Shown here: positions 5,546-18,990 of the stretch, in pieces | How the letters are laid out: the number at the start of each line of letters is the position of its first letter | How positions within the stretch are numbered: the first letter of the stretch is position 1 | IMG/VR virus record: IMGVR_UViG_3300030838_000051 | Span: 1 to 22,455 of that record | Strand: one strand, 5' to 3' | Origin: a virus | DNA: 22,455 nt | Notes under the pieces: model-generated | Database searches by the model: none | What the model was told of the DNA's origin: nothing | Seen by the model: only the letters and a program-made list of their open reading frames with translations | Position numbers and translations under genes: made by a program

Positions 5546-5563
5546 GCCCGCTGGACGCGTTTA

Positions 5564-5580
5564 GGGGCGTTCAGCGCCCC
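5564..5580 (+). terminator. Hairpin after G, possible weak terminator
   Basis: A 6-bp perfect GC stem, GGGGCG / CGCCCC, closes a 5-nt TTCAG loop 19 bp after the G stop codon. No T-run follows on either strand, so intrinsic termination is doubtful. Its place at the end of an operon block is the main support. Confidence 0.4.
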
Positions 5581-5702
5581 GGTTCATCACGCAGCAACCC
5601 CGAAACCTGCTGTGCATGCTTTATAAATCCTCGTTGCCGCACTGCACGCCTATCGAACGGCTGCATATTTCAGACGCTCCGTCATTTCCTCTCGCGACAA
5701 CT

Positions 5703-5721
5703 CTTTAAACCCGATTAAAAG
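5703..5721. promoter_or_regulatory. 19-bp dyad element, copy 1 (candidate late-promoter operator)
   Basis: Sequence CTTTAAACCCGATTAAAAG. It shares 16 of 19 positions with both other copies (11834-11852 and 18562-18580), the three central bases being the only variable ones. The half-sites form an imperfect inverted repeat (CTTT-N-AA ... TT-N-AAAG). It lies 60 bp before the protease start codon, where Mu has its C-activated promoter for gene I. No clear -10 box conserved between copies is visible, so promoter function is inferred. Confidence 0.6.
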
Positions 5722-5781
5722 TCTCGGGCCGGTCTTTGGATCAGGCTGTGTGCTTACTCCACCAAGCGCACGCCAACAGCC

Positions 5782-6807
5782 ATGAAGCCACTCCATATTT
5801 TCAAGTCGGGTAAGCACATCGCCATGAGCGGTGACAGCTTCAACTTCAGCGAAAGTGATTTGGCCGCCACCGTGCGCGCCTACTCGCCTGCTGTGCATGA
5901 GGCGCCGCTGGTGATCGGCCATCCCAAACACGACGCACCTGCAGCGGGCTGGGTGAAGTCTCTGCAGGCGACAGCCGAGGGGCTCATTGCCGAACCGCAG
6001 CAGGTCGATCCGGCATTTGCCGAACTGGTTGCCAATAAGCGCTTCAAGAAAATCTCCGCTTCGTTCTATCACCCCGACTCGCCGAGCAATCCGGTGCCAG
6101 GCGTGTACTACCTGCGCCACGTCGGCTTCCTCGGGGCTCAGCCTCCCGCCATCAAGGGCTTGCGCCCCATTGACCTGGCCGACACCGACGAAGGCGTTAT
6201 CGAGTTCGGTGACTACGGGCACGAAGTCAGTTCCGGCCTGTGGCGCAAGTTTCGCGAATTCCTGATCGGCCAGTTCGGCGCCGAGACCGCCGACAAGGTG
6301 GTTCCGTCCTGGGAGATCGACAGCCTTGCCGAAATCGCTCGTCGCCCCGAGCTGGAAACCGGCCCGTCCTATGCAGAACCCAAACCCACCACCGAGGTAA
6401 ATCCCGTGACCGAGGAAGAACAGGCCCAATTGAAGGCGGAAAACGAGCGTCTTCAAGCCCAAATCAACCGACGCGACAAAGCCGACAAAGCGGCGACCGA
6501 GGCAGCAATCCACGCCAGTAACACTGTGTTCGCCGAGCATCTGGTGGCCAGCGGCATGAAGCCGGTCCACGTCGCTGCCGTTGTGGCTGCGCTGAACTTC
6601 GCCGAGACAGGCGACAAGGGTGACAAGCCCCTGGAATTCGGCGAAGCCGATGATCGTCAGCCGCTCACTGAAGGCCTCAAGGCCGTTTTTCAGGAACTGA
6701 CCGGCGCTGTCAGCTTCGGCGAACAGGCCTCCAAAGAGCGTGCTGGTAAGGCCCAGGACAAGACCATCAATCCGCTTGTGGCTGACGCCGAAGCCCGTTC
6801 GAAATGA
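5782..6807 (+). CDS. Prohead protease with scaffold domain, Mu gpI-like
   Basis: A 341-residue protein. The N-terminal half matches the Mu I protease family: FSESDLAATVRAYSP, then EAPLVIGHPKHDAP (41-53), FKKISASFYHP (88-98) and HVGFLGAQPPAIKGL (113-127). From about residue 209 it changes to a charged helical, coiled-coil-like domain (EEEQAQLKAENERLQ) that would be the scaffold. The protease matures the prohead by cutting scaffold. I do not assign catalytic residues. The start lacks a strong Shine-Dalgarno sequence but agrees with family N-termini. It follows the first 19-bp element and so opens the second block. Confidence 0.9.
   Translation: MKPLHIFKSGKHIAMSGDSFNFSESDLAATVRAYSPAVHEAPLVIGHPKHDAPAAGWVKSLQATAEGLIAEPQQVDPAFAELVANKRFKKISASFYHPDSPSNPVPGVYYLRHVGFLGAQPPAIKGLRPIDLADTDEGVIEFGDYGHEVSSGLWRKFREFLIGQFGAETADKVVPSWEIDSLAEIARRPELETGPSYAEPKPTTEVNPVTEEEQAQLKAENERLQAQINRRDKADKAATEAAIHASNTVFAEHLVASGMKPVHVAAVVAALNFAETGDKGDKPLEFGEADDRQPLTEGLKAVFQELTGAVSFGEQASKERAGKAQDKTINPLVADAEARSK
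6406..6807 (+). CDS. Candidate internal start for a separate scaffold protein (Mu gpZ-like)
   Basis: Inside the protease gene and in the same frame, a GTG at 6406 is preceded by GAGG with 8-nt spacing, exactly where the sequence changes from protease to the charged coiled coil. Initiation here would give a 133-residue protein identical to the C-terminus of the protease. Mu and many other phages make their scaffold from such a nested gene. The site and its ribosome binding site are seen; use of the start is inferred. Confidence 0.5.
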   Translation: MTEEEQAQLKAENERLQAQINRRDKADKAATEAAIHASNTVFAEHLVASGMKPVHVAAVVAALNFAETGDKGDKPLEFGEADDRQPLTEGLKAVFQELTGAVSFGEQASKERAGKAQDKTINPLVADAEARSK

Positions 6808-6818
6808 TAGGAGGCTCC

Positions 6819-7187
6819 ATGCCTACTTACACCAAGCCCAAAACCTTGGGCGATTTGCTCCTGGTCGAAGTCGCTCCGGGTTGGACCAAGGAAAAAGGCC
6901 TGCTCCTGGCGGGCACCGATTACCCGCTGGGCACGGTTCTGGCCAAGGTGAGCGGCAAATACCAGGCGCTCGATCCGGCAGGTACCGGTGCCGTCAAAAA
7001 GGCTGCCGCTGTCCTGGCCGTCAACGTAGATGCCAGTGCGGGCGATGCGCCGGGTGTTGTCATCGCTCGTGGCGCGGTCGTCGAGTCGACGGAATTGCTC
7101 TGGCCGGCAGGCGCTACCGACCCCCAAAAAGCCACCGCCCTGGACGAACTTAACGCCCTGGGCATCGTCGCTCGTGCGGCGCTCTGA
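6819..7187 (+). CDS. Head decoration protein (lambda gpD-like)
   Basis: A 122-residue protein. The ATG at 6819 is preferred to an in-frame ATG at 6804 because AGGAGG (6809-6814) lies between them. The sequence has the features of the head decoration family. An N-terminal GDLLLVEVAPGWTKEKGLLLAGTDYPLGTVL forms the characteristic opening; a segment on accumulated Ala/Val (AAAVLAVNVDASAGD) follows; and the end is LDELNALGIVARAAL. Trimers of such proteins clamp the expanded capsid lattice. It directly precedes a lambda-E-like capsid gene, its natural partner. Confidence 0.85.
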   Translation: MPTYTKPKTLGDLLLVEVAPGWTKEKGLLLAGTDYPLGTVLAKVSGKYQALDPAGTGAVKKAAAVLAVNVDASAGDAPGVVIARGAVVESTELLWPAGATDPQKATALDELNALGIVARAAL

Positions 7188-7199
7188 TAGGAGCTGTAC

Positions 7200-8177
7200 A
7201 TGAATCTTCAAAACCTCTTCACTGTTGCCAGCCTCAGTGCATCCATCAATAAGTTGCCCGTGATTCCGAGCAAGGTCGGCGCCATGGGCATCTTCGAAGA
7301 GAAAGGTGTCACTACCACGTCGGTGGTCATCGACGAATACGAAGGTCGCCTGGTGTTGGTGCCGAACGCTTCACGCGACGCCGATCCAGCCCCCGTGAAA
7401 AGCGGTAAGCGTGCCCGCCGTACCTTCGAAACGTTGCACTTGCCGCTGTCCCGACCACTGCTTCCGAGCCAGCTGCAGGGCATCGCGTCCTTTGGTCAGG
7501 AGGCGGCTACCGTCCCGCAGGCCACGGTGATCAACGATCACCTGCAGGAGCTGAAGAACAGCATCGAATCCACCCGTGAGTTTCAGCGCGTCGGCGCTCT
7601 GCGCGGCAAGCTGCTCGATGCGGATGGTTCCATCATTGTCGATTTGTTCGATGAGTTCGATGTTGCACAGAAGAAGGTAACGGTAGCCCTGGGCACTGCA
7701 GCGACGAACGTGCGCAAGGCTTGCCTCGATGCCAAGCGTCATGCTGAGTCCAAGCTCGGCGGTGTCATGGTCACCGGCTTCCGATCGCTGTGTGGCCCTG
7801 CCTGGTTCGATGCGTTCACTGAACACGAGAAGGTCAAAGCCGCATTCGCCAATTACCAGGAAGCTCAGGACCGTATCGGTGGTGACCTGCGCAATGGGTT
7901 CACCTTCGGCGGCATCGAGTTCATCGAGTACGACGTAACGGTCAGTGGTCAGCGCTACATCCCGGAAAACGTCGCCCAGGTGTTCCCGGTGGGCAAAGGC
8001 GTCTTCAAGATGTTCAACGCCCCGGCCAACTACAACGAGACGGTCAATACCGTCGGCCTGCCGTTCTATAGCAAAGGCGAAGAACGCAAGATGGGCAAAG
8101 GCTGGGACGTCGAGGCTCAGGCCAACCCGTTGGCTATGTGCTTGTTCCCTGAAGCCCTCGTCGAACTGTCGTTCTAA
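7200..8177 (+). CDS. Major capsid protein (lambda gpE-like)
   Basis: A 325-residue protein with a TAGGAG ribosome binding site 6-8 bp upstream. Motifs fit the lambda E capsid family (HK97 fold) and not the Mu T capsid: INKLPVIPSKVGAMGIFEEKGVTTTSVVIDE near the N-terminus; the P-loop-like basic segment SGKRARRTFETLHLPLS; AKRHAESKLGG; and LCGPAWFDAFTEHEKVK followed by GGIEFIEYD. The last ends the axial domain, and the family-typical FPEALVELSF closes the protein. Length is close to lambda E (341 residues). It forms the icosahedral shell. Confidence 0.92.
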   Translation: MNLQNLFTVASLSASINKLPVIPSKVGAMGIFEEKGVTTTSVVIDEYEGRLVLVPNASRDADPAPVKSGKRARRTFETLHLPLSRPLLPSQLQGIASFGQEAATVPQATVINDHLQELKNSIESTREFQRVGALRGKLLDADGSIIVDLFDEFDVAQKKVTVALGTAATNVRKACLDAKRHAESKLGGVMVTGFRSLCGPAWFDAFTEHEKVKAAFANYQEAQDRIGGDLRNGFTFGGIEFIEYDVTVSGQRYIPENVAQVFPVGKGVFKMFNAPANYNETVNTVGLPFYSKGEERKMGKGWDVEAQANPLAMCLFPEALVELSF

Positions 8178-8180
8178 GCC

Positions 8181-8612
8181 ATGCGCTACTGCAGCCGCGC
8201 CGATATCGGCAATGCCATTCCTGAGCTGACGCTGATTCAGCTCTCCAACGATGACCCCTCGGCCATGCAGCCGAACGAGTCTGTGATCGAGGACGGCGTG
8301 CGCCAGGCCGAGGAGCTGGTCGACGGTTATCTGCGCGGGCGCTACACCTTGCCGCTCGACCCGGTGCCCACGGTGCTGCGCGATGCCGTGGTCTACCTGG
8401 CACGGCACTGGTTGTATCAGCGTCGGCCCGAAGGTTCGTTACCGGATCCGGTCAAGGACAGCCGCAAAGACACCATCAAGCTACTGGAAAGTATCCGTGA
8501 TGGTGTCGTCACCCTGGGCATGCCTTCCGGTCAAGCAACACCGGAGCCCGGTGAGATCCGCGTCCGCTCACGTCGCCAGCAGTTTGGTGACGATCTCTGG
8601 AAGGGGTACTGA
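8181..8612 (+). CDS. Head-tail connector protein, Mu gp36-like (DUF1320)
   Basis: A 143-residue protein starting MRYCSRADIGNAIPE, the standard DUF1320 opening (YCTxxDLxxxxxE..L). It continues with the EDGVRQAEELVDGYLRGRYTLPL helix and loop, then VPTVLRDAVVYLARHWLYQRR. Family members sit in the head-tail neck as an adaptor below the portal. The start is 3 bp after the capsid stop and has no clear Shine-Dalgarno sequence, suggesting translational coupling. Mu has gp36 at the equivalent place after its capsid gene. Confidence 0.88.
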   Translation: MRYCSRADIGNAIPELTLIQLSNDDPSAMQPNESVIEDGVRQAEELVDGYLRGRYTLPLDPVPTVLRDAVVYLARHWLYQRRPEGSLPDPVKDSRKDTIKLLESIRDGVVTLGMPSGQATPEPGEIRVRSRRQQFGDDLWKGY

Positions 8613-9106
8613 TGAGCCAGCTGCTGATTCAACCCAAGACCCAGACCGAGCAACTGATGGCCGCCGTCATCGACCGATTGAAAGCGCACTTCGACCTGGA
8701 GCTGATGATCGAGTTATTTCCCGAGGACTCGGCTCGGTACCGGCTGAATCACCCTCGGGGCGCCATTCTGGTGGCCTTCGGCAAGTCGTCGTTCGATGAC
8801 TCCGAATCCATGGATGCCATGTTCCAGGCCCGCAAGATCGTGTTGCGTCTGACCTTTGTGTTTCGCCAGCTGAATGGCAAGGACGGGGTAATCAGTTATC
8901 TCGACCGTGCCCGAGGTGCGCTTACTGGATGGAAGGCGCCGCACTGCGATGTGGCCTGTCGCCCACTCGCGGAAGCGTTCATCGGCCAGACGCAGGGCAT
9001 CTGGCAGTACGCCCTCGACATTTCCACCCGTGCAACCCAGTTGCAAATCATGGAGCCCGAAACCGGGTATCCCCTGACTCAGACCCGTTTCGAGGATCTC
9101 CCGTGA
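8612..9106 (+). CDS. Mu gp37-like neck/tail-terminator-type protein
   Basis: A 164-residue protein overlapping the previous stop by 1 bp, with AAGGGG upstream. It has alternating strands and helices: HPRGAILVAFGKSSF, ARKIVLRLTFVFRQL, GVISYLDRARGALTGW, and a C-terminal WQYALDISTRATQLQIMEPE. This is the pattern of the gp37 / DUF1834-type family found in the neck region of Mu-like phages. A tail-terminator or connector role is inferred from position (after gp36, before the sheath). The exact Pfam family is uncertain. Confidence 0.7.
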   Translation: MSQLLIQPKTQTEQLMAAVIDRLKAHFDLELMIELFPEDSARYRLNHPRGAILVAFGKSSFDDSESMDAMFQARKIVLRLTFVFRQLNGKDGVISYLDRARGALTGWKAPHCDVACRPLAEAFIGQTQGIWQYALDISTRATQLQIMEPETGYPLTQTRFEDLP

Positions 9107-9357
9107 AACTGACCCGCTATTTGTACAAAGGCCCGCAGAGCGCGGCGACGCTTCGTCTTGTTGCCGAATCCGGCAAGCCTGCCGAGCTGCTCGAAGTACA
9201 GCTGATGCCTGGCAAACCTGTCGAGCTGCCAGAAGAACATGAATATGTTCAGGTGCTGCTCACCCTCAAACATCTGGAGTTACTTCCAGGCGGCGTCGCC
9301 GAAAGCGCTGTGGTCGCTGCGCCCACTGCGCAAGCCAAGAAAGGAGCAAAAGCCTGA
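9103..9357 (+). CDS. Small phage protein of unknown function (Mu gp38 position)
   Basis: An 84-residue protein. I choose the GTG at 9103, which overlaps the upstream TGA (GTGA) and has GAGG upstream; a longer reading from 8929 would overlap the previous gene by 178 bp. It begins MKLTRYLYKGPQSAATLRL and has a beta-rich first 65 residues followed by an Ala/Lys-rich basic tail (AAPTAQAKKGAKA). Mu has a small gene (gp38) between gp37 and the sheath, but I do not see convincing sequence similarity. Its stop overlaps the sheath start. Function unknown. Confidence 0.65.
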   Translation: MKLTRYLYKGPQSAATLRLVAESGKPAELLEVQLMPGKPVELPEEHEYVQVLLTLKHLELLPGGVAESAVVAAPTAQAKKGAKA

Positions 9358-10784
9358 TGGCTGCTAACTATTTGCACGGTATTGAGACCCTTGAGATATC
9401 CCGAGGGGCAAGGCCCATCCGCATTGTTAAGTCGGCGGTCATTGCCTTGCTCGGTACCGCACCGGTCGGGGCGGTGAATGCGGTCACGCTGTCGCTGAAT
9501 GATACCGACGGCGCGCAGTTTGGCCCTGATGACCTGGACGGCTTCAGTATTCCTAAGGCTTTGTCGGGCATCTACGACTTCGGCGCAGGGACTGTCCTGG
9601 TAGTGAACGTTCTGGATCCGTCGGTCCACCGCACCAATGTTGAGGGTCAGGCCCGCTCCTTCGGTGATAACGAACTGCTGAGGCTGGGTCACGGCGCACT
9701 ACAGGCATTGACACTCAAGCCGTCTGCCGAGGGCGTGGCCTATCAGGTCGGTGTCGATTACACCGCTGACATGCTGACCGGCAAGGTCACACGACTGGCC
9801 GCTGGCGCTATCCCGATCAACGGATCGGTCATTGCCGACTACACCCATGCGGACCCGAGCAAAGTCACACCCGCCGATATCGTCGGCGCGGTCAACGTTG
9901 CAGGTCAGCGAAGCGGGCTCAAAGCGTTCCAGGACAGCTACAACACCCTGGGCTTCTTTGCGAAGATCTTCATTGCTCCAGGGTTCAGTCAGCTCAACAC
10001 GGTCAGCGTCGAGCTGATTGCGGCCGCCACTCAAGTCGGCGGGGTCGCTTACATCGATGCGCCGATCGGCACCACTGTGCAGCAGTGCATTGCCGGTCGC
10101 GGACCTGCAGGCGCGATCAACTTCAACACCAGCAGTGATCGGGTGCGTTTGTGCTATCCCCACGTGAAAGTGCTCGATACCGCCACCAGCGGTGAGCGCC
10201 TGGAACCCCTGTCGATCCGTGCTGCCGCTCTTCGGGCGAAGATCGACAACGACAAGGGCTACTGGTGGAGCAGCTCCAATCAGGAGCTGATTGGCGTAAT
10301 CGGGCTGGAGCGGCCTTTGACCGCCCGAGTTGACGACGCGAGCAGTGAAGTCAATTTGCTCAACGAAAACGGCATCACCACCGTCTTCAATTCATTCGGT
10401 ACCGGACTGCGATTGTGGGGCAACCGCACTGCCGCCTGGCCGACCGTGACGGAGATGCGCAACTTCGAAAACGTTCGTCGCACCAAGGACATCATTGACG
10501 AATCGATCCGCTACAGCTCGCTGCAGTTCGTGGACATGCCGATCACCGATAGCCTGATCGACAGCATCACCGAAAGCGTCAATCTGCTGTTTCGCAAGTT
10601 GATTGGTGATGGAGCGTTGATCGGTGGGGAGTGCTGGTATGACCCCGCCCGCAACCCTCAGACAGAGCTGCAGCTTGGTCATGCGCTGTTCAGTTACAAG
10701 CTGACCGTGCCTCTGCCGCTTGAGCGAGGCACGTTTGAAACCGAAATCACCAGCGAATACCTGGTCAACCTGGGAGCACCATAA
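9357..10784 (+). CDS. Contractile tail sheath protein (Mu L / P2 FI type)
   Basis: A 475-residue sheath subunit. The N-terminus (FLHGIE-like MAANYLHGIETLEI, then RPIRIVKSAVIALLGTAP) and C-terminus (RNPQTELQLGHALFSYKL and PLERGTFETEITSEYL) match tail sheath families. These ends hold the arms that link subunits in the helical sheath. Between about residues 125 and 175 there is a beta-domain insert (YQVGVDYTADMLTGKVTRL and VIADYTHADPSKVTPADI) absent from minimal sheaths. Its stop overlaps the tube start by 1 bp, the usual sheath-tube pairing. The sheath contracts around the tube on infection. Confidence 0.93.
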   Translation: MAANYLHGIETLEISRGARPIRIVKSAVIALLGTAPVGAVNAVTLSLNDTDGAQFGPDDLDGFSIPKALSGIYDFGAGTVLVVNVLDPSVHRTNVEGQARSFGDNELLRLGHGALQALTLKPSAEGVAYQVGVDYTADMLTGKVTRLAAGAIPINGSVIADYTHADPSKVTPADIVGAVNVAGQRSGLKAFQDSYNTLGFFAKIFIAPGFSQLNTVSVELIAAATQVGGVAYIDAPIGTTVQQCIAGRGPAGAINFNTSSDRVRLCYPHVKVLDTATSGERLEPLSIRAAALRAKIDNDKGYWWSSSNQELIGVIGLERPLTARVDDASSEVNLLNENGITTVFNSFGTGLRLWGNRTAAWPTVTEMRNFENVRRTKDIIDESIRYSSLQFVDMPITDSLIDSITESVNLLFRKLIGDGALIGGECWYDPARNPQTELQLGHALFSYKLTVPLPLERGTFETEITSEYLVNLGAP

Positions 10785-11305
10785 TGGCCTTCGCCGCGCA
10801 CCGCATTTCAAACGCCAACATCTACCTGGACGGAGCCGACTTCTTCGGTAAGGCCGAAGAGATTGACCTTGGCTCAGTAAAGGCTGTGATGTCCGACTTC
10901 CAGGGCCTGGGCATGATCGGCTTGATCGAGTTACCCGATGGCTTCGACAAGATCGAGGGCAAGATCAACTGGAACAGCATGTACGGCGAGGCGGCCACCA
11001 AGCTTGCAACGCCTTTCAAAAGCGTTGCGTTGCAGTGCCGGTCGAACGTGCAGGTGTTCGACAGCACTGGCCTGGTGAAGGAAGTCCCGCTGGTCACGAT
11101 GATGACCATCACCTTCAAGGAGTACAAACTGGGCAGCCACAAGCCTCGCGATCCAGCGAAGTACGAGTCGCCGTTCTCGGCCACCTATGTGCGACAGGTC
11201 CTCGATGGTGACGAAGTGCTTCTGCTGGACTACATGTCAAACATCTTCAAGGTGAATGGTGAGGATCAGCTGGCGACATACAGGAAGAATATCGGCCGGG
11301 CTTAG
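10784..11305 (+). CDS. Major tail tube protein (P2 FII / Mu M type)
   Basis: A 173-residue protein of the P2 FII tail tube family. It starts MAFAAHRISNANIYLDG, where this family has its N-terminal 'NANVYxDG' motif. It continues DLGSVKAVMSDFQGLGMIGLIELPDGFDKIEGKINWNSMYGE, and the C-terminal half ends SNIFKVNGEDQLATYRKNIG, also a strong family match. Hexamers stack into the inner tube inside the sheath. It is the last gene before a terminator. Confidence 0.95.
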   Translation: MAFAAHRISNANIYLDGADFFGKAEEIDLGSVKAVMSDFQGLGMIGLIELPDGFDKIEGKINWNSMYGEAATKLATPFKSVALQCRSNVQVFDSTGLVKEVPLVTMMTITFKEYKLGSHKPRDPAKYESPFSATYVRQVLDGDEVLLLDYMSNIFKVNGEDQLATYRKNIGRA

Positions 11306-11334
11306 CGGTTGCGCGGGATGCGCCTGATCTGAAA

Positions 11335-11399
11335 CAGCCCCAAGGACGGGGCTGCATGGATGCAAATAGAAGCCCCGCCATCGCGGGGCTTCGCTTTTT
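11335..11399 (+). terminator. Tandem hairpins ending the sheath-tube block
   Basis: Two hairpins follow the tube gene. The first is CAGCCCC (11335-11341) pairing with GGGGCTG (11348-11354). The second is a perfect 10-bp stem, GAAGCCCCGC (11369-11378) with GCGGGGCTTC (11383-11392), loop CATC, followed by GCTTTTTC. The second is a classic intrinsic terminator for the + strand. Read from the other side it is followed by TATTTGC, so it may also weakly end transcription of the reverse cargo gene whose stop is 15 bp away. Confidence 0.85.
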
Positions 11400-11406
11400 C
11401 TGGCTG

Positions 11407-11757
11407 TCAGTCGTTAAATTTGGCGTTCAGGCATTGAGGAGTAGCGTTCAGCGCTGCCAGACCCTTCTCCGTGAGCACTACCTTGCCAAAGGTACCAAAT
11501 TGCTTTTGGGTTGCTGCCACGTATTCCTCACTTGTCAACCATTCGACACAATAATCGAAGAACTTTTCGTCAGCTCCCGTCCTGCGCTGCTGCAGCACGC
11601 TCAGACCGCCAATGGTCTCAGCAGGCTCATCTGGAAGCTCGTCTGAAATACCGATGTCCTCTGCGCACAGAGCTATTGGTTCTGGAAAGGTCTCCAGCAA
11701 TTTGGCAAATATTTTGCCCACTACATTCTCAAATTTTTCGGACTGCTTGATTTCCAT
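11407..11757 (-). CDS. Reverse-strand cargo gene (moron 1), small protein of unknown function
   Basis: A 116-residue protein on the opposite strand to all tail genes. The ATG at 11757 has a strong AAAGGAG 9 bp upstream, inside the end of a 21-codon leader ORF. The N-terminal half is acidic helix (EKFENVVGKIFAKLLETFPEP, then EDIGISDELPDEPAETI). The C-terminal half, FFDYCVEWLTSEEYVAATQ followed by GKVVLTEKGLAALN, has the shape of a winged-helix end. Hand counting gives 26 G/C in the 60 bases 11521-11580 (43%), against 37 of 60 (62%) at 15061-15120, which suggests separate acquisition. I do not recognise the family. A lysogen-expressed or host-modifying role is inferred from its orientation only. 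Confidence 0.8.
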   Translation of the reverse strand: MEIKQSEKFENVVGKIFAKLLETFPEPIALCAEDIGISDELPDEPAETIGGLSVLQQRRTGADEKFFDYCVEWLTSEEYVAATQKQFGTFGKVVLTEKGLAALNATPQCLNAKFND

Positions 11758-11759
11758 GC

Positions 11760-11825
11760 CTAATCTCCTTTGATGGCCGTGTGATACTGCTTTTTTAGCT
11801 GCTGAATTGCATCGTTTTTATTCAT
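11760..11825 (-). CDS. 21-residue leader ORF before moron 1
   Basis: A short reverse-strand frame from ATG (complement of 11823-11825) to TAG (complement of 11760-11762) encoding MNKNDAIQQLKKQYHTAIKG plus D. A GCAGGG stretch precedes the ATG. It ends 2 bp before the moron 1 ATG, and its last codons contain the AAAGGAG used by moron 1, so the two would be translationally coupled. The amphipathic helical peptide resembles the start of a longer protein, so it could be a real micro-protein, a leader, or the remnant of an N-terminal domain. Confidence 0.45.
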   Translation of the reverse strand: MNKNDAIQQLKKQYHTAIKGD

Positions 11826-11833
11826 CCCTGCTT

Positions 11834-11852
11834 CTTTAAAGCGGATTAAAAG
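11834..11852. promoter_or_regulatory. 19-bp dyad element, copy 2
   Basis: Sequence CTTTAAAGCGGATTAAAAG, differing from copies 1 and 3 only in the three central bases. It lies between divergent genes: 70 bp before the tail chaperone ATG on the + strand, and 8 bp before the 21-codon leader ORF on the - strand. It could therefore act on either or both transcripts. The best parallel is a Mu-type late promoter operator upstream of distal tail genes; repression or activation of the moron is the alternative. Confidence 0.6.
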
Positions 11853-11922
11853 CCGGATCGTCCTCCAGGTGCGAACCTCTGGATTCTTTCAGAGCAGTCC
11901 CATTTCACCTGGAGCAATAGCA

Positions 11923-12279
11923 ATGGCCGCAGCCCTCAGTATCCCACTCAAATTCCCCTTCACGACCGCAGCGGGCGCCTACCTAACGTCACTGCCTATC
12001 ACTCGCCTCAAGCGCAAGGACATCGGTAAGGCCCAGGACTACAGCAAGGACGAGGGCGTGATCGAGGACTTCCTCCTCGCAAAAATGACCGGTATGACCA
12101 TCGAAGATCTTAACGATCTGGATATCGCTGACTCCAAAACCGTCACCGAGGTGTTTCGGGGCATGGCTGATGGACGAGACCTGGCTGCACTCCTGGGACG
12201 AAGCGCTGTTGATGGTGCTGAAGATGCAGCCCTCGGAGATAGCAAACCTGGAGATGCCGGAGTATCTGCGCTGGGTTGA
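11923..12279 (+). CDS. E: Tail assembly chaperone (Mu gp41 / P2 E type)
   Basis: A 118-residue protein. The ATG at 11923 has GGAG 9 bp upstream and is preferred to a GTG at 11869. The sequence (GAYLTSLPITRLKRKDIGKAQ and the IEDFLLAKMTGMTIEDLNDLDIADSKTVTEVFRG core) matches the Phage_TAC family of P2 E, Mu 41 and relatives. These proteins chaperone the tape measure protein during tail tube assembly. Its zero-frame C-terminus after about residue 80 loses family character, while the same DNA in another frame regains it. That points to a programmed frameshift giving a long isoform, as in P2 and Mu. Confidence 0.85.
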   Translation: MAAALSIPLKFPFTTAAGAYLTSLPITRLKRKDIGKAQDYSKDEGVIEDFLLAKMTGMTIEDLNDLDIADSKTVTEVFRGMADGRDLAALLGRSAVDGAEDAALGDSKPGDAGVSALG

Positions 12280-12340
12280 TGCGTGCGGTCGGGAAATCGA
12301 CCGGCGCATCGAAGCTGCAGAAAAGATGCGCTCGCAATGA
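12161..12340 (+). CDS. Frameshifted extension of the tail chaperone (E'/gp41' type)
   Basis: This reading frame is displaced from the chaperone by -2 (equivalently +1). It is open over the overlap and encodes WLHSWDEALLMVLKMQPSEI followed by ANLEMPEYLRWVDACGREI and a basic helix to TGA at 12338-12340. That is the usual sequence style of chaperone extensions. A G-rich run CGGGGC at 12157-12162 would let a Gly-tRNA on GGC re-pair with GGG two bases back, giving a fusion of about 139 residues. A frameshift of -2 is reported for phage Mu, whereas P2 and lambda use -1. An internal ATG at 12170 has no ribosome binding site, so fusion is preferred. The exact slip site is inferred. Confidence 0.65.
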   Translation, partial: AWLMDETWLHSWDEALLMVLKMQPSEIANLEMPEYLRWVDACGREIDRRIEAAEKMRSQ

Positions 12341-12376
12341 GTGCCATCGTAGGAGCCGGGCCGTTGGCTCGGCTGG
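12341..12376 (+). repeat. Short hairpin resembling a degenerate Pseudomonas REP
   Basis: In the 65-bp gap between chaperone extension and tape measure, GTAGGAGCC is followed by complementary GGCTC and CGGCT, giving a 5-bp stem (GAGCC 12353-12357 with GGCTC 12366-12370). An alternative outer pairing is AGCCG with CGGCT. The GTAGGAGC head is typical of Pseudomonas REP sequences, but the stem is imperfect and there is only one copy. Confidence 0.3.
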
Positions 12377-12405
12377 CATAAGGTCAGGCTCCAGGCGTAA
12401 CGAAT

Positions 12406-15003
12406 ATGGCGAATGAAGTTCTTGTCGGGCTACGGATCGGTGCTGCGGTTTCGGGTACCTTGCAGTCCGCGTTCGGGTCTGCGCGCTCCACCGTCCAGCA
12501 GCTCGGACGAGCTACAGACGGTCTAACTGCCCGGCAAAAACTCATCGGTACCGAGCTGGCCGCGTCCCTCGCGCGCGGCGGTACCGGCATTGAGCGTCTG
12601 CGCAATCAGTACACCCAGGTTGGCCGCACCATTGATCAATTGAAGGCCAAGCAGGAGCAACTCAACACCAGCATTGCCCGTGGCGAAACCCTGAAAAACA
12701 AGCGCAGTGAATTGCGTGGTCAAGCGATGGAGACCATTGGGACGGCTGCTGTAGTAGGGGCGCCGATCGTTCAGTCCATGCGCACCGCAATCGACTTCAA
12801 AGATCAGACCAACGACATCGCCATCACGGGCGGCTTCAATGCTGCCGAGGAAGAGCAGCTCAGCAATGTAATGCGGGGGGCGGCGCTGAAGTGGAACCAG
12901 ACGCAGACTGAAGTGGCCAAGGGCACGGCTGTGTTAATTGCAGGCGGTATCTCCAGCGCCAAAGAGTTGGCCGCATACGCCCCAGTCATGGCAAAGACCG
13001 CAACCGCAACGCGTGCCAGCATGGATGATCTTGGGTCGGTAGCCATCGCGCTGAATGACAACCTCGGTATTGGCGCGGCAGGGCTTGAGCGCTCGATGAA
13101 TATGCTGGCCTATGCCGGTAAACGAGGCCAGTTCGAGCTGGCCGACATGGCTAAATGGCTGCCTCAGTTGACTCCGCAGTTCGCCGCTTTGGGCATTACC
13201 GGAGAGCGTGCTGTTGCTGAGATCGGTGCGTCGTTGCAGATTGCTCGCAAGGGTGCAGGCAGCAATGACGAGGCGGCCAACAACTTCAAAAACTTCTTAT
13301 CCAAGATCACTGCAAAGGACACTTTGAAGTCATTCAAAGATGCAGGCATTGACCTTCAGGACGCGATGAAAAATATGGTCGGCAAAGGCATGACGCCGAT
13401 GCAGGCCATGCTCGACATCATCACTCAGTACATGGGTACGAAGGGGCCAAAGGCCGCCGCCGAGTTCCAGAAAGTAATGGCTCTCAAGGATGATAAAGAG
13501 CGCGAAACAGCATTAGCTCGACTGAATGAATCTTACAAGCTGGGTGAGTTGTTCGCGGATCAGCAGGTCTTGGCGTTCATACGGCCAGCTATCGCAAACC
13601 GAAACGAAGGCGCAGACATTCAGAAAGGTAGTGCTGCGGCCGCTGATCAGGGCGTTCTTGATCAAGACTGGAAGAAGCGGATGGAGAGCCCTAAGGAGCA
13701 ACTGAAGGCTCTTACGGTCAATCTTTCGGACCTTGGCATCTCCGTTGGCAGCGTTCTGTTGCCCGCCCTCGTGGACGTAACTAGAGCGGCTATCCCTGTA
13801 GTAAAGGCATTTTCCACCTGGGCAGGCGAAAACCCGGCGCTGGTGAAGGGTGTGGTCGGATTGGTCGCAGGCCTATTGGCCAGCAAGTTAGCTTTCATCG
13901 GCGTTGCCTACGGCGCCAACCTGGTGATGTCGCCGTTTGTATCGATCATGACTGCCATGACCTCGATGTCGGCCAAATGGACGCTGCTGCGCGCTGCCTG
14001 GCAGATGGGCCGGTTTGCCCCGGCGATCTCCGGCCTGAAGATGCTGGGCGGCGGCCTGCTCACCACTCTCAAATACAGCGGCATATTCCTGCGCGGTATC
14101 GCCATGGCGTTCGGTGCGCCACTCATGATGGCTGCTCGGGGCGGGTTGTTCCTGGGCAAGATCCTGGGCGGAACATTGCTGTTCGGCCTGAAGCTTGCGG
14201 GTCAGGCCATCCTTTGGCTTGGTCGCGCACTGTTGATGAATCCCATCGGCCTGGCGATCACCGCTATTGCCCTCGGGGCGTACCTGATCTACCGCTACTG
14301 GGAGCCAATCAAAGGTTTCTTCAGTGGCTTGTGGAGTGAGATCAAGGCTGGCTTCAATGGCGGCCTGGCTGGGATCGTAGGCCTGATCGTCAACTTCTCC
14401 CCAGTGGGCTTGTTTTACCGGGCCTTCGCTGGAGTCATGAGTTATTTCGGGGTCGAGTTGCCGGGCAAATTCAGTGAGTTCGGCGGCAATATCATCAGCG
14501 GCCTGATCAGTGGCATCAGCGCCCGACTCGAAAGCGCCAAGGAAACCGTTGTCGGAATCGGTACTTCGATTAAGGGCTGGTTTACCGAAACGCTGGGCAT
14601 CCAGTCACCGAGCCGCGTGTTCATGGGTTACGGTGCCAACATCAGCGAGGGCGCTGCAATCGGCATCGCCTCGCAGTCCGGCCTCGTTCGTCAGGCAGCG
14701 CTGGGCATGGCCGACCAGACAGGCGTCCCAATGCGCCTTCCCAATCTGTCTGCTCTCACCAGCGCCAACATGGCCGGTGCTGATGGTCTCGGAGGCGCGA
14801 GCACCATGGGTGGTGCGGCAGGGGCGCAACCCCTGCAGGTTACATTTGCTCCAGTCATCAACGTGCCGGGTGGTGAAGGTGTTGGTAATCAAGTCACCCA
14901 AGCGTTGAACACCAGCTATGCCGAGTTCGTTAAGTTCATGGAGCGCTTCCAGCATGACCAGAGTCGCCGCAGCTACGGCCCACCAGCTGGAGGGCGTACC
15001 TGA
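12406..15003 (+). CDS. Tail tape measure protein
   Basis: An 865-residue protein, the longest in the window, placed directly after the tail chaperone. The N-terminal third is helical and coiled-coil-like (LRNQYTQVGRTIDQLKAKQE, then a TP901-type core with FKDQTNDIAITGGF and SMDDLGSVAIALNDNLGIG). Two hydrophobic blocks lie at about residues 478-506 and 601-632. The conserved tail end SPSRVFMGYGANISEGAAIG lies at about 733-752. The protein sets tail length and is ejected to help DNA cross the inner membrane. By the rule of about 0.15 nm per residue the tail would be near 130 nm. Confidence 0.93.
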   Translation: MANEVLVGLRIGAAVSGTLQSAFGSARSTVQQLGRATDGLTARQKLIGTELAASLARGGTGIERLRNQYTQVGRTIDQLKAKQEQLNTSIARGETLKNKRSELRGQAMETIGTAAVVGAPIVQSMRTAIDFKDQTNDIAITGGFNAAEEEQLSNVMRGAALKWNQTQTEVAKGTAVLIAGGISSAKELAAYAPVMAKTATATRASMDDLGSVAIALNDNLGIGAAGLERSMNMLAYAGKRGQFELADMAKWLPQLTPQFAALGITGERAVAEIGASLQIARKGAGSNDEAANNFKNFLSKITAKDTLKSFKDAGIDLQDAMKNMVGKGMTPMQAMLDIITQYMGTKGPKAAAEFQKVMALKDDKERETALARLNESYKLGELFADQQVLAFIRPAIANRNEGADIQKGSAAAADQGVLDQDWKKRMESPKEQLKALTVNLSDLGISVGSVLLPALVDVTRAAIPVVKAFSTWAGENPALVKGVVGLVAGLLASKLAFIGVAYGANLVMSPFVSIMTAMTSMSAKWTLLRAAWQMGRFAPAISGLKMLGGGLLTTLKYSGIFLRGIAMAFGAPLMMAARGGLFLGKILGGTLLFGLKLAGQAILWLGRALLMNPIGLAITAIALGAYLIYRYWEPIKGFFSGLWSEIKAGFNGGLAGIVGLIVNFSPVGLFYRAFAGVMSYFGVELPGKFSEFGGNIISGLISGISARLESAKETVVGIGTSIKGWFTETLGIQSPSRVFMGYGANISEGAAIGIASQSGLVRQAALGMADQTGVPMRLPNLSALTSANMAGADGLGGASTMGGAAGAQPLQVTFAPVINVPGGEGVGNQVTQALNTSYAEFVKFMERFQHDQSRRSYGPPAGGRT

Positions 15004-15884
15004 TGTATGCGGTCCTGGGAAAAATCGAATTCGAGGTGGCCAGCGGCATCACCGGCATGGAACAGCGCAGCACTGCCGATTGGGCCGAGCATTCGCTGAT
15101 TCAGGGCAAGCCGCTACTGGAGTGGATCGGCGACGGCCTCGACGAGCTGAGCTTCAGCATGCAGCTGCATCCATGGTTGGGTGACCCTGAGGCCCGGCTG
15201 CGCACGTTGCGCGAGGCGAAGAGCAAGCACGAGCCGATGGCGTTTGTCCTGGGCAGCGGTGAGTACGTCGGTGCCTTCGTGATCGCCGACATCAGCAACA
15301 CACCTCGTCGGACCTCGGCTGACGGTCGGCTTTATTCGTCGAATGTTCAGGTCACTCTGCGCGAATATGCAGGGCCATTCACGCCCAAGTTGGTCAAGCC
15401 TGGCCTGATCGATTCTGCGGTGCAGTCCACGGCTGCGGCGAAGATCGCGACCCCCGCATTAATCTCAAAACTTGCTCCGGTGCTGACCTCGGCTCAGCAA
15501 GTGGTTGGCTATGCGCGCCAAGCTGGGACGATGATCCAGCAGGCGAAGACCATCTACGACGCGGTGAAGAACTTCAACCCGATGACATTGCTTACGCAGG
15601 CTCCGCAGCTCGCCGCTCTGGCCGAGCGAGCGCTGGGGCCGATCGCTGGCCTGACTGAAGCTGCGAGCTTTATCCGCGAGGGGCAGGACATAGCGCAGCT
15701 GGGGCAGAGCCTGTATGGCAGCGTCAGCGGCGCACGATCTAGCCTGAGCCCACTGGACCTGGGCAATGTCGTCGATCGATTCGAGACCTCTGGCAATTAC
15801 ATTGCCCAGGCCTACGACAGGCTCGATGGGGCTTCAACGCGCCTGACTGGCCTGGCCGCTCAAGTCATCACCAGGAGAGCTTGA
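15003..15884 (+). CDS. U: Tail protein U-like with long C-terminal extension
   Basis: A 293-residue protein overlapping the tape measure stop by 1 bp. Residues 1-122 match P2 gpU: start MYAVLGKIEFEV, then an LSFSMQLHPWLGDPEARLRTLREA core, and the signature GEYVGAFVIADISNTPRR followed by YSSNVQVTLREY. P2 gpU has about 159 residues. Here a further roughly 170 residues of Ala-rich helix follow (AKIATPALISKLAPVLTSAQQ, GLTEAASFIREGQDI and others). U proteins act in tail assembly near the baseplate/tube junction. The extension's role is unknown. Confidence 0.85.
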   Translation: MYAVLGKIEFEVASGITGMEQRSTADWAEHSLIQGKPLLEWIGDGLDELSFSMQLHPWLGDPEARLRTLREAKSKHEPMAFVLGSGEYVGAFVIADISNTPRRTSADGRLYSSNVQVTLREYAGPFTPKLVKPGLIDSAVQSTAAAKIATPALISKLAPVLTSAQQVVGYARQAGTMIQQAKTIYDAVKNFNPMTLLTQAPQLAALAERALGPIAGLTEAASFIREGQDIAQLGQSLYGSVSGARSSLSPLDLGNVVDRFETSGNYIAQAYDRLDGASTRLTGLAAQVITRRA

Positions 15885-16090
15885 TGTTTCTGACTCATGT
15901 CACAACTGAGGGCGAGCGCTGGGACCAGTTGGCCTGGAAGTACTACGGCGATGCCCATCGTTACCCGCCGATCGTTGAGGCCAATCCTCATGTGCCGATC
16001 ACCGGGGCATTGCCTTCAGGTTTGATTCTGGCTATTCCAGTGCTTGAGCCTGCAGTGTCGAGCGAGGATCTCCCGCCATGGATGCGTTAG
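15884..16090 (+). CDS. X: Tail protein X-like (LysM-type hub factor)
   Basis: A 68-residue protein. The ATG at 15884 is preferred to the adjacent TTG; CAGGAGAG at 15872-15879 supports it, and it overlaps the U stop by 1 bp. The GERWDQLAWKYYGDAHRYPPI and EANPHVP core followed by LPSGLILAIPVLEP is the LysM-like P2 gpX pattern. It presumably sits in the baseplate hub or binds peptidoglycan. The stop lies 13 bp inside the start of D, as in P2-type phages. Confidence 0.92.
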   Translation: MFLTHVTTEGERWDQLAWKYYGDAHRYPPIVEANPHVPITGALPSGLILAIPVLEPAVSSEDLPPWMR

Positions 16091-17193
16091 TACCAGGGGA
16101 AGTACCCGAGGCGCGCTTTGTGCTGACCTACCAGCAGCGCAACATTACCCATGACATCAGCAAAAACCTGACCTCGATCTCTTACTCGGACTTTCTGACA
16201 GGTCAGGCTGACACCTTGGATATCGAGCTGGAAGACACGGAGGGGAAGTGGCTCGATGCCTGGTATCCGGGCCATGGCGACGCACTTGCTTTGTCCTTGG
16301 GGTGGACAGGCAAGCCGCTGCGCACGCTGAGCCGCCTGCAGATTGATGAGGTCGACTTCAGCTCCGCCCCTGCCACTGTCGGCATCAGGGCGATTGCGAC
16401 AGGCATCAACACGGCGCTGCGCACCACCGAGCACAAGGCCTACGAGAACACCACGCTTGCCGCCGTTGCCCAGGAGGTCGCTAGTCGCCTGGGGCTGACT
16501 CTGGTGGGCAGCATTGAGCCGATCAAGCTTGATCGACTGACACAGCAGGAGTCGGATCTGGAGTTCCTGCGCAACCTGGCAGATGAATACGACTACGCCT
16601 TTAAGGTGACCGGTTCACGCCTGGTGTTTCATGCCATCAGCGAGCTGGCCAAGGGCAAGCCGGTCGCTCAGTTGATGCTGAAAGACCTCAGCAACGTGCG
16701 CTTGCGGGACCAGATCAGGACCGTGCCGGAGAAGGTGTCGGTTAAACACAAGGATCCAGCCAAGAAGAAGCTGATCTCTTACGACATTAAAAACGGTGAG
16801 ACCGTCGCGGTTCCCAGCAGTAGTAGCGGCGCGACCACCAGTGCCGATACCAAGAAACAGCGCAAGCGTTCAGCCTCTGAAGAGGAATCCAAGGCCAAGG
16901 CCAAGGCTGACCTGGCCAAATCGAACCGGGAGCGCACGACGGGTAGCTGGTCGATGATCGGTCAGCCCAATCTGGTCAGCGGCAACGTCGTCACCCTGGT
17001 CGCAGCGGGCAAAATGGGCGGCAACTACCTGATCATGTCCGCGCAGCACCGGATTACCCGTGGTGGTGGCTATACGGTTGAGCTGAGCCTCTGTCGTGTA
17101 TCCGCGACCTCAATATCACTGTCATTCGAAGCCTCCAAGCCTGATCTGGCGCTGTCGACCTATGGCTTCCAGCAGGATGGTGCCCTTGCATAA
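16078..17193 (+). CDS. D: Baseplate hub protein D-like (phage late control gene D family)
   Basis: A 371-residue protein. The family opening PEARFVLTYQQRNITHDISK and YSDFLTGQADTLDIELED, the middle QQESDLEFLRNLADEYDYAF, and the end GNVVTLVAAGKMGG followed by RGGGYTVELSLCRV all match P2 D / Mu P baseplate hub proteins. They are homologues of the gp27 hub around the spike. About residues 240-290 form a low-complexity Ser then Lys/Glu/Ala-rich linker (KKQRKRSASEEESKAKAKAD). In P2-like phages this name is historical and does not imply a late regulator. The start overlaps X by 13 bp. Confidence 0.92.
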   Translation: MDALVPGEVPEARFVLTYQQRNITHDISKNLTSISYSDFLTGQADTLDIELEDTEGKWLDAWYPGHGDALALSLGWTGKPLRTLSRLQIDEVDFSSAPATVGIRAIATGINTALRTTEHKAYENTTLAAVAQEVASRLGLTLVGSIEPIKLDRLTQQESDLEFLRNLADEYDYAFKVTGSRLVFHAISELAKGKPVAQLMLKDLSNVRLRDQIRTVPEKVSVKHKDPAKKKLISYDIKNGETVAVPSSSSGATTSADTKKQRKRSASEEESKAKAKADLAKSNRERTTGSWSMIGQPNLVSGNVVTLVAAGKMGGNYLIMSAQHRITRGGGYTVELSLCRVSATSISLSFEASKPDLALSTYGFQQDGALA

Positions 17194-17219
17194 CCTCAAA
17201 GCAGCAGGAGGCCTCAGCC

Positions 17220-17771
17220 ATGGGCGTTGAGCTGGAATACGGCGAAGTGAGCGCGGTCGATTACCAGGGCTGCCGGATCCGCGTGCGTCTAGATGACCGG
17301 GACGGCGTGGAGAGCTATTGGCTGCATGTGCCTCAGCGCAACACCCAGGGCACGCAACGTCGTCCGTTGATGCCTGAGCTGAATGAGCAGGTGGCGGTGC
17401 TGCTCGATGCGGATGGCGTCGGTGGCGTTTACCTGGGTGGCATCTATTCCACCGCTGAGCCGCCGCCAGTCGTCGACCAGGACACCGACTATGTGCGCTT
17501 CAGTGACGGCACAACGCTGACTTATAATCGTGCAGCCCACGTGATGGCGTTGGACTGCGTAGGTTCCACAACGCTCAAGTGCGCCAAGAATCTGAGCGTC
17601 GAGTGCGGTGAACCGGTATTGATCAAGGCCCCGTCAGCTACGTTGGACATTGCTGACGTGGCGTTGAATGGCAATCTGAAGGTGAGTGGTAATGTCGAGG
17701 TTGGCGGCAACGTTGAAACTGCGGGTACTGTTATGGATGCAGGTGGAAATTCTAATCACCATTCCCACTGA
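17220..17771 (+). CDS. V: Baseplate spike protein V-like (membrane-piercing)
   Basis: A 183-residue protein with CAGGAGG 9 bp upstream of the ATG. The N-terminal OB-fold-like part is seen in VDYQGCRIRVRLDDRDGVES and WLHVPQRNTQG, then ELNEQVAVLLDADGVGGVYLG. A glycine/valine-rich beta-helix (LNGNLKVSGNVEVGGNVETAG) follows. It ends NSNHHSH, i.e. an HxH (H181, H183) at the extreme C-terminus. P2 gpV and Mu gp45 hold an iron ion at the spike tip with an HxH motif. The protein forms the trimeric needle that pierces the outer membrane. It is the last gene before the second cargo gene. Confidence 0.92.
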   Translation: MGVELEYGEVSAVDYQGCRIRVRLDDRDGVESYWLHVPQRNTQGTQRRPLMPELNEQVAVLLDADGVGGVYLGGIYSTAEPPPVVDQDTDYVRFSDGTTLTYNRAAHVMALDCVGSTTLKCAKNLSVECGEPVLIKAPSATLDIADVALNGNLKVSGNVEVGGNVETAGTVMDAGGNSNHHSH

Positions 17772-17778
17772 TATAGGC

Positions 17779-18501
17779 TCAGCTCCATTCTACCCGGCCA
17801 GCCGCGTCTCGCGGGAAGCCGTCATCTACTGACTGACGAACAATCTTTCCACATACTTCGATCTTGGTAGCTAAGAGCCAATCACTGTTTATCCGACGGA
17901 GTAGGATTTGTTGAAATATTGTCCCATTTCGTGCATTCATAAAAATGTTGAATCTGCGGGAATCGCCGGGGCCGAGGGAGTGCCAGTCCAAGGTCTTCGC
18001 CAAACCCACCGGCAATTCATCAACAGCAAAATACCGTTCGCTCATTCGGCCGGTGTGTGGGTCGTTATGGAATGTGTCCAAATCAACAATTCGCACCTGC
18101 ATTGTGTACATAGGGAAAGGGCCTGATTGGATTAACATCCATATCGACTGATCGTCACCTTGTCTACCTACTTCGACGTAGCAAAAGCTAGCACCACCGG
18201 TCACATGCCCCACGAGCTGCTCTGTTTGATGTTCAAGCCTCTCGGTGACAGCTTGGATGCGCTGCTCGACTGCAGCCAGGCTGCTTTCAACACCTGCTTG
18301 CTTACGGACCCGAAAAATTTGTCCGGTCATCCAGCTAGCAAAGAAGAACGCGGGCCCAAGATTCATACCTATGGATTGAACACTCAGCGGCTTACCCCAC
18401 AGTACATAGATAGTCCAGGCAGCTGCTGCGCCACATGGCACCCAAAACTCCCTTACAAGCTGCTTTATCGTCCTGACTGTCTTTTCTGATAGAACTTTCA
18501 A
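17779..18501 (-). CDS. Reverse-strand cargo gene (moron 2), membrane protein of unknown function
   Basis: A 240-residue protein opposite to the surrounding tail genes and convergent with V, with only 7 bp between stops. The start is TTG at 18501 with GGGGGC upstream; an ATG 5 bp earlier is in another frame and hits a stop. Two hydrophobic segments lie at about residues 19-36 (FWVPCGAAAAWTIYVLWG) and 41-63. A coiled coil follows (about 70-97, SLAAVEQRIQAVTERLEHQT), and then a roughly 140-residue mixed domain with no motif I know. Composition is AT-richer: 23 G/C in 17881-17940 (38%). A lysogenic-conversion or superinfection-exclusion role is plausible but unproven. Confidence 0.8.
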   Translation of the reverse strand: MKVLSEKTVRTIKQLVREFWVPCGAAAAWTIYVLWGKPLSVQSIGMNLGPAFFFASWMTGQIFRVRKQAGVESSLAAVEQRIQAVTERLEHQTEQLVGHVTGGASFCYVEVGRQGDDQSIWMLIQSGPFPMYTMQVRIVDLDTFHNDPHTGRMSERYFAVDELPVGLAKTLDWHSLGPGDSRRFNIFMNARNGTIFQQILLRRINSDWLLATKIEVCGKIVRQSVDDGFPRDAAGRVEWS

Positions 18502-18612
18502 TCCATTGCCCCCGCTAAATTTAGGGGTGTGATTTTGCCCGAAGGCACGTGCCCGCAGTACCTTTAAACTCGATTAAAAGCCATCCGAAGCAGGTATCCC
18601 CAATATGGGCGC
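18502..18612. promoter_or_regulatory. Control region between moron 2 and baseplate gene W
   Basis: This 111-bp divergent region holds two perfect 10-bp palindromes, CTAAATTTAG (18515-18524, flanked by C and G runs) and GGCACGTGCC (18544-18553), plus the 19-bp dyad copy 3. The first palindrome lies 14-23 bp upstream of the moron 2 start codon and could be an operator or contain a -10 box. No strong Shine-Dalgarno sequence precedes W. Roles are inferred. Confidence 0.45.
18562..18580. promoter_or_regulatory. 19-bp dyad element, copy 3
   Basis: Sequence CTTTAAACTCGATTAAAAG, identical outside the three central bases to copies 1 and 2. It ends 32 bp before the ATG of the baseplate gene W and lies about 60 bp upstream of the reverse cargo gene. 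If the element binds an activator in the same geometry as Mu C sites, transcription would begin very close to the W start codon. That is a weakness of the simple promoter model. Confidence 0.6.
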
Positions 18613-18990
18613 ATGACGACGCCCATCTCCTATACCAGCATCACCGCAGCCCACTGGCAGCCAGCACTTGGCACTGCCGGTGCGGTCGTGGAAGGCCTGC
18701 GTGATATTGACCAGGCTATTCGCATCATTCTCACCACGCCCAAAGGCAGCGACCCACACCGGCCTACGTTTGGCAGTGACATCCACCTTTATATCGACTG
18801 GCCCGTAAACCGCGTCGTACCGCACCTGGTGCGCGAAGCCGTCGACGCGATTCGCCTTTGGGAGAAGCGTGTCACCGTTGTTCGTGTTGTGCCGTTAATA
18901 GAAGAAGCACAAGTCAAGCTTGGCGTTATGTGGCGGGTTGCAGACGGCATGCCTCAGTTGACGGAGGTGCCGTATGCGCGAGCTGCCTAA
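18613..18990 (+). CDS. W: Baseplate wedge protein W-like (gp25 lysozyme-like fold family)
   Basis: A 125-residue protein of the GPW/gp25 family. IDQAIRIILTTPKGSDPHRP followed by FGSDIHLYIDWPVN is the family signature (RxILxTxxGxRxxxPxFG). The C-terminal EKRVTVVRVVPLIEEAQVKL segment is the family beta-strand end. W forms part of the inner baseplate and sheath initiator. J starts 17 bp before the W stop. The ATG at 18613 is the only reasonable start, since upstream in-phase starts are absent and the nearby ATG at 18605 runs into a stop. Confidence 0.92.
   Translation: MTTPISYTSITAAHWQPALGTAGAVVEGLRDIDQAIRIILTTPKGSDPHRPTFGSDIHLYIDWPVNRVVPHLVREAVDAIRLWEKRVTVVRVVPLIEEAQVKLGVMWRVADGMPQLTEVPYARAA

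Follow-up and report, generated by a model that had tools for sequence, protein, structure and literature searches.

The window analyzed here, the complete 22,455-bp virus record IMGVR_UViG_3300030838_000051, covers the greater part of the late region in a Mu-like phage with a contractile tail, including the genes for terminase, portal, F, G, protease, decoration and major head proteins, sheath, tube, tail proteins, tape measure, and baseplate. Its nearest named relatives are Pseudomonas prophages. Three of its late intergenic gaps, referred to as slots 1, 2, and 3, lie between G and the protease, between the tube gene and the gene in the tail assembly-chaperone position, and between V and W, respectively. 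They are very probably the spaces that separate the last gene of a late operon from the activator-dependent promoter of the next operon and that have turned into slots for exchangeable cargo genes. The slots, their turnover, the geometry of the promoters, and the cargo families can be read from the compared sequences.

It is proposed that the late region consists of four operons (lysis/packaging, head, tail, and baseplate), each of which would be started by an activator of the Mor/C family on a 19-bp dyad centered near −42, with RNA polymerase bound at a nonconsensus −10 hexamer (nAnnnT) and no −35 element. The three gaps would have become cargo slots because foreign DNA entering between an operon end and the following activator site breaks no gene, operon, or promoter. 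Extra genes, often defense-like, would be gained, lost, and exchanged slot by slot, most likely via recombination between the conserved flanks, and the late promoter to their right would stay in place.

Gene content at the late junctions

The sheath protein was used as the query to fetch 105 related loci, and duplicates between IMG/VR and GTDB were dropped before counting, leaving 92 distinct phages including the window (91 besides it). The gap was measured for each pair of neighboring late genes, and an insert was scored above a threshold of 300 bp; many of the records are partial, and start codons are estimates.

Counted over distinct phages, inserts >300 bp are present in 96 of 162 alleles at the three dyad-bearing junctions (G/protease, tube/chaperone, and V/W) versus 7 of 903 at 17 other late junctions. 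They occur in 18 of 45 phages in slot 1, 55 of 74 in slot 2, and 23 of 43 in slot 3, the corresponding numbers of empty slots being 27, 19, and 19. The original prediction had the late operon broken at these three places by recurring insertion points between late transcription units. The breaks are present in the window, and the alignment of syntenic relatives bears the prediction out: content is variable at the three junctions, with hardly any variation at other points of the late region, being neither constant at all three sites nor placed equally often elsewhere. The two occupied gaps of the window likewise hold AT-richer reverse-strand genes, as had been described, with a guanine plus cytosine (GC) fraction of ~0.50–0.53 versus ~0.60 around them.

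The slots vary independently of one another among phages whose flanking genes are 90–95% identical at the DNA level. The relatives L105 and L107 have slot 1 in common at 98% identity and differ in slots 2 and 3, while L105 and L055 have slot 2 in common at 100% and differ in slots 1 and 3; the flanks in these comparisons are 92–94% identical.

A simpler account is that the slots are tolerated as mere intergenic gaps, that any gap suffices, and that the promoter is inactive in this respect. Such an account fits the architecture of the late region, in which most other junctions overlap or measure <20 bp and thus leave little room for an insert. However, two more gaps of ~240 bp, neck/sheath and chaperone/tape measure, contain small phage genes and rarely acquire more than 300 bp. 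The account is also largely compatible with the explanation given above, from which it departs only on the contribution of the promoter and the operon end (e.g., in insulating cargo from late transcription). As a rival, it is considered rather unlikely.

Several points weigh against gaps between operons as the seat of cargo exchange. A few inserts are found at late junctions that lack the dyad (the 7 of 903 above), and 16 group B phages carry 5–8 kb in slot 2, which is beyond a simple moron. Many cargo genes, both of those in the window included, have no recognized function. Furthermore, sampling is uneven, the sheath being the sole gene used to find relatives, and the window stops short of the region of the Mor/C gene.

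The dyad as a predicted late promoter element

The dyad CTTTAAANNNNATTAAAAG (CTTTAAA-N5-TTAAAAG) occurs three times in the window, always on the + strand, as compared to 0.02 occurrences expected from shuffled sequences. The first two copies are near-palindromic and consequently give a weak − strand match as well. When alleles are lined up on the dyad without gaps, an nAnnnT hexamer is located exactly 20 nt past it in 149 of 150. The hexamers are characteristic of each slot: CAGNCT in slot 1, GATGCT (or CATCAT) in slot 2, and CATNAT in slot 3. The predicted +1 was placed seven bases after the hexamer, which positions the dyad center at −42. A scan of the window region for sigma-70 promoters returned none, fewer than in shuffles, and none was matched for the window cargo genes.

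Exactly four dyads (0–1 mismatch), all on the late strand, are present in 19 of 23 longer relative records, with zero matches to a reversed control pattern. The fourth dyad is found ~7.5 kb upstream of slot 1, before the lysis-side genes, and has the same geometry. A Mor/C-family activator gene (PF08765), one per phage, is harbored by 22 of these 23 relatives. Three sites of the isolated phage Komp_PAO1_1 have the same layout. It recurs in the Pseudomonas phage Bise, ahead of W and of the protease, and ahead of four genes of the Klebsiella KP12 record, where dyads have diverged.

Two of these database entries merit separate mention. In the Komp_PAO1_1 record (L155, PQ287647.1), the deposited annotation of positions 5112–7241 has a reverse-strand open reading frame and appears to miss the protease and other + strand head genes. 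The entry “Klebsiella phage KP12” (L156, OM835952.1), filed under Vequintavirinae, looks like a Mu-like prophage with FluMu-like genes and a transposase, possibly reflecting host DNA in the assembly.

In Mu, the site of the Mor dimer is a 16-bp dyad centered at −43.5 that replaces the −35 element (PMC4390567). Mu C activates lys, I, P, and mom, and the lys, I, and P promoter oligonucleotides contain ATAA followed, after 24 nt, by TAGACT, CAAACT, or TATCCT, all of which conform to nAnnnT (PMC4461284). The best reading of the dyads in the window and its relatives is that of a set of Mor/C-activated late promoters, with activator binding and transcription start predicted from their arrangement.

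The distance between the end of the dyad and the next gene is 55–60 nt in slot 1, 53–78 nt in slot 2, and 32–33 nt in slot 3, the same in empty and filled alleles. On the basis of this near-constant spacing, the dyad is assigned to the downstream operon as a predicted promoter element and not to the cargo, for which it had been proposed as a border. In the outgroup loci L091 and L100, the slot 1 dyad lies 33 nt before the protease. The seemingly displaced slot 1 dyad of L014 probably reflects an incorrectly placed start of the protease and was left out of the evidence.

The similarity between promoter copies raises the question of whether they participate in cargo exchange themselves. Slot 2 of L045 contains, at 12708–13288, a second complete promoter with a 98-codon gene on the + strand behind it. 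The extra dyad is the only one of its kind in about 1.8 Mb of relatives; the gene would be under late control, and the duplication suggests that promoter copies have recombined. On this hint, the late promoters, of which each genome has four near-identical copies and which are alike over ~50 bp among alleles of one slot, could act as recombination handles that capture and shuffle cargo. This reading is improbable but, if true, would couple late gene control to the acquisition of defense genes.

It is very improbable that the dyad marks a site of recombination or integration, or bounds a mobile cassette, with a dedicated enzyme inserting the cargo there. The dyad does flank nearly every filled slot on the right, and L045 has two copies of the entire 50-bp promoter, one on either side of a gene. 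However, empty alleles and the fourth promoter, on the lysis side, have the dyad just as well, and its distance from the downstream gene is fixed; a role as cargo border or integration site was rejected on these grounds. In addition, no second copy is found to the left of cargo except in L045, where homologous recombination between promoter copies would explain it, and no integrase-like gene is common to the cargo.

The three slots and their cargo

Table 1. Positions of slot, promoter, and cargo features in the window
Feature	Position	Strand	Basis or occurrence
Slot 1 (G/protease), empty form, ~235 bp	5546..5781		27/45 distinct phages at 232–278 bp, 18 with 632–6035 bp
Short GC hairpin GGGGCG-TTCAG-CGCCCC, no T-run	5564..5580		sequence; absent from terminator scan list
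Conserved TTTATAAA element, 74 nt past G stop	5620..5627		33/33 empty and 16/18 filled slot-1 alleles
19-bp dyad, predicted Mor/C-type activator site	5703..5721	+	
Predicted −10 hexamer CAGGCT (nAnnnT), predicted +1 near 5754	5742..5747	+	20 nt after dyad in 43/43 dyad-bearing slot-1 alleles
Head maturation protease, first gene of second late operon	5782..6807	+	PHROG 976, E 1e-116
Slot 2 (tube/chaperone position), occupied	11306..11922		10–7885 bp over 74 distinct phages, 55 with insert
Strong intrinsic terminator GAAGCCCCGCCATCGCGGGGCTTC then T-run, left of cargo	11369..11392	+	
Slot 2 cargo, 116 aa, winged-helix-like	11407..11757	−	PHROG 2266, E 3e-23
19-bp dyad	11834..11852	+	
Predicted −10 hexamer GAACCT, predicted +1 near 11885	11873..11878	+	nAnnnT at same offset in 66/66 dyad-bearing slot-2 alleles
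Tail protein (assembly-chaperone position), first gene of third late operon	11923..12279	+	PHROG 166
Slot 3 (V/W), occupied	17772..18612		55–1144 bp over 43 distinct phages, 24 filled
Slot 3 cargo of 240 aa with hydrophobic helices at the N terminus, a coiled coil, and a beta domain	17779..18501	−	no family
19-bp dyad	18562..18580	+	
Predicted −10 hexamer CAATAT, predicted +1 = 18613	18601..18606	+	nAnnnT in 40/41 slot-3 alleles
Baseplate wedge gene W, first gene of fourth late operon, predicted leaderless	18613..18990	+	PHROG 43

The three slots had been described as sharing one arrangement. This holds for their right side, where a dyad is present in all three. The left side is loose, with a terminator in slot 2, a short hairpin in slot 1, and neither in slot 3.

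No convincing gene is found in slot 1 of the window (5546–5781). The empty form is the common, intact, and conserved state of this slot, including in the most divergent relatives. Its length is steady within a few bases across Pseudomonas phages with up to about 28% divergence in the G protein, and two conserved blocks, GGTTCATC and TTTATAAA, occupy fixed positions in all copies of this form. Of the 18 filled alleles, 16 retain ~80 bp directly past G, with TTTATAAA 70–74 nt after the stop codon, and have cargo in place of most of the remainder up to the dyad.

The strong gyrase site of Mu is located between G and I. Slot 1 lies near the middle of the prophage, at 49–54% of its length in 16 of the 18 long relatives (record ends are approximate), and the slot's phased A/T periodicity is mildly raised and rarely the strongest of the locus. 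The center of the Mu genome carries a strong gyrase site, which is required for end pairing (PMC3820752, PMC10052514); slot 1 is only a candidate for such a site. The TTTATAAA block (5612–5632), which nearly all relatives carry at one set position behind G and which is doubled in the outgroups L097 and L100, is mid-prophage and a candidate part of it. That slot 1 is a decayed cargo slot, which the original prediction offered beside an unused one for a window copy that holds no gene, is scarcely credible and was rejected on the alignment, in which empty alleles of divergent phages conserve both length and blocks, at a mid-prophage position where Mu has its strong gyrase site (PMC3820752).

In slot 2, the empty form has a strong terminator, GAAGCCCCGC..GCGGGGCTTC, directly before the dyad. 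Cargo sits either to the left of this terminator or between terminator and dyad, the window being of the second kind; as cargo can lie left of the terminator, the dyad is not its constant right neighbor in this slot. The slot 2 cargo gene of the window belongs to a family with 38 members in slot 2. Its structural model appears winged-helix-like (predicted local distance difference test score, pLDDT, of 82), and the matches from a fold search are weak. A 21-codon reading frame, MNKNDAIQQLKKQYHTAIKGD, lies just upstream of this gene on the − strand (11760–11825).

In slot 3, cargo is placed directly between the V stop codon and the dyad. The model of the window cargo protein, of modest confidence, suggests N-terminal helices, a long helix, and a beta domain, again with weak fold search matches. 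A relative with 44% identity is encoded in the V/W slot of another, 47-kb phage beside a DUF4145 gene. The V/W gaps of L105 (837 bp) and L075 (751 bp) are AT-rich and have no long reading frame, and that of L105 matches the window cargo at 39%; their contents look like decaying cargo.

The fourth operon is predicted to begin with a leaderless gene. The ATG of W is exactly 33 nt past the dyad in 38 of 41 dyad-bearing alleles, coinciding with the predicted +1. An ATG is present at this position in 37 of 37 phages, and codons 2–9 vary mainly at third positions (67 versus 19 and 27 at the others). W also starts at the predicted +1 in Klebsiella KP12 and in Bise, and in the latter, the protease does likewise. 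A leaderless start was also considered for the first lysis-side gene (GTG at +1) and rejected: codon-position counts give no coding signal there, and the true start is an ATG about 50 nt on, after AGGAGG.

Two further features surround the W start. An inverted repeat, ATGGGCG..CGCCCAT, extends over the start codon (18605–18628) and is paired in 28 of 41 phages versus 20 expected with shuffled partners, with some compensatory changes. The spacer between dyad and hexamer (18581–18600) can form a hairpin such as GCCTGCgtcaGCAGGC in many relatives, as if the W promoter had the V operon's terminator built into it; the hairpin's pairing exceeds that of shuffled partners only modestly.

Cargo gaps are mostly AT-richer than their surroundings, with GC fractions of 0.44–0.55 versus 0.53–0.62 for the locus, and a few are near the locus value (e.g., slot 3 of L054 and slot 2 of L060). 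When clustered, the 297 candidate open reading frames fell into 117 groups, each confined to a single slot. Cargo in slot 3 is mostly on the reverse strand, and that in slots 1 and 2 is mixed and often on the + strand, so the reverse orientation of both window genes does not extend to a rule.

Going by the names of their families, several cargo genes may be defense-like. In slot 1, L048 encodes a RES-domain protein with a weak HEPN/RES match, and L021 encodes a 1339-aa NACHT protein, the only candidate for a match to antiphage EruA (NCBIfam, E 0) among 26 cargo proteins scanned; one of the 26 matches PD-T7-4. Slot 2 harbors a YfbU-domain protein in L050 and, in the long phages L080 and L086, an AAA_13/PrrC-like PDC-S06 protein and a Dsr1-like SIR2 protein. 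L015 has a phospholipase D-like cargo protein, and DUF4145 proteins are found in slot 3.

A sister group is distinguished by 5–8 kb of slot 2 cargo, with Dsr1-like, PrrC-like, PLD, and MBL genes, and by genomes of 44–48 kb where record lengths tell. Its members (L015, L017, L018, L064–L066, L072, L077, L078, L080, L082, L084–L088, L098, and L099) deserve a survey for defense genes.

Relation to known systems

Regions of accessory genes in Mu-like Pseudomonas phages (PMC4378225) and defense hotspots in P2 and P4 (PMC9122126) are already known. A report tying such slots to Mor/C-type late promoters was not found in the literature searched, most subscription journals being outside its reach. The acquisition of accessory genes by these phages has been called mysterious (PMC4378225), and the slots offer a testable answer in the form of a rule for Mu-like Pseudomonas phages, namely, that exchangeable genes would lie between a late operon end and the next activator site. 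The 45-bp pattern of dyad, 20 nt, and nAnnnT locates the predicted promoters, and hence the slots, in unannotated sequence; therefore, these phages are a ready source of candidate defense genes. A defined set of Mor/C-type late promoters would also make the activator and its sites comparable across genera.

The predicted promoters resemble the C-dependent Plys, PI, PP, and Pmom and the Mor-dependent Pm of Mu in that a Mor/C-family gene is present in relatives, a dyad lies upstream of a missing −35 element, and the −10 hexamer is nAnnnT. As in Mu, one promoter precedes the protease (gene I) and one the lysis genes. However, there are several differences from Mu. The dyad is CTTTAAA-N5-TTAAAAG and is separated from the hexamer by 20 nt, the other two operons begin after the tube gene and at W instead of at P and mom, and three of the gaps hold cargo.

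The slots also resemble regions A–I of D3112-like phages, in which accessory genes, often AT-rich, occupy fixed places in a Mu-like genome (Cazares et al. 2014, PMC4378225). Those regions are mostly in the left arm of a siphophage, with no common flanking sequence recognized, whereas the slots described here are in the late region of a myophage beside a recognizable promoter element. The antiviral hotspots of P2-like phages and P4 satellites are likewise small loci between conserved genes with a high turnover of defense genes (Rousset et al. 2022, PMC9122126). In contrast to these, the slots belong to another phage family, number three per genome, and are at operon joints marked by an activator site. 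Finally, the cargo is reminiscent of the morons of lambdoid and other phages, which are extra genes of different composition between adjacent genes; it differs from them in its recurrence at operon joints and, in L045, in an extra gene that brings a copy of the late promoter with it.

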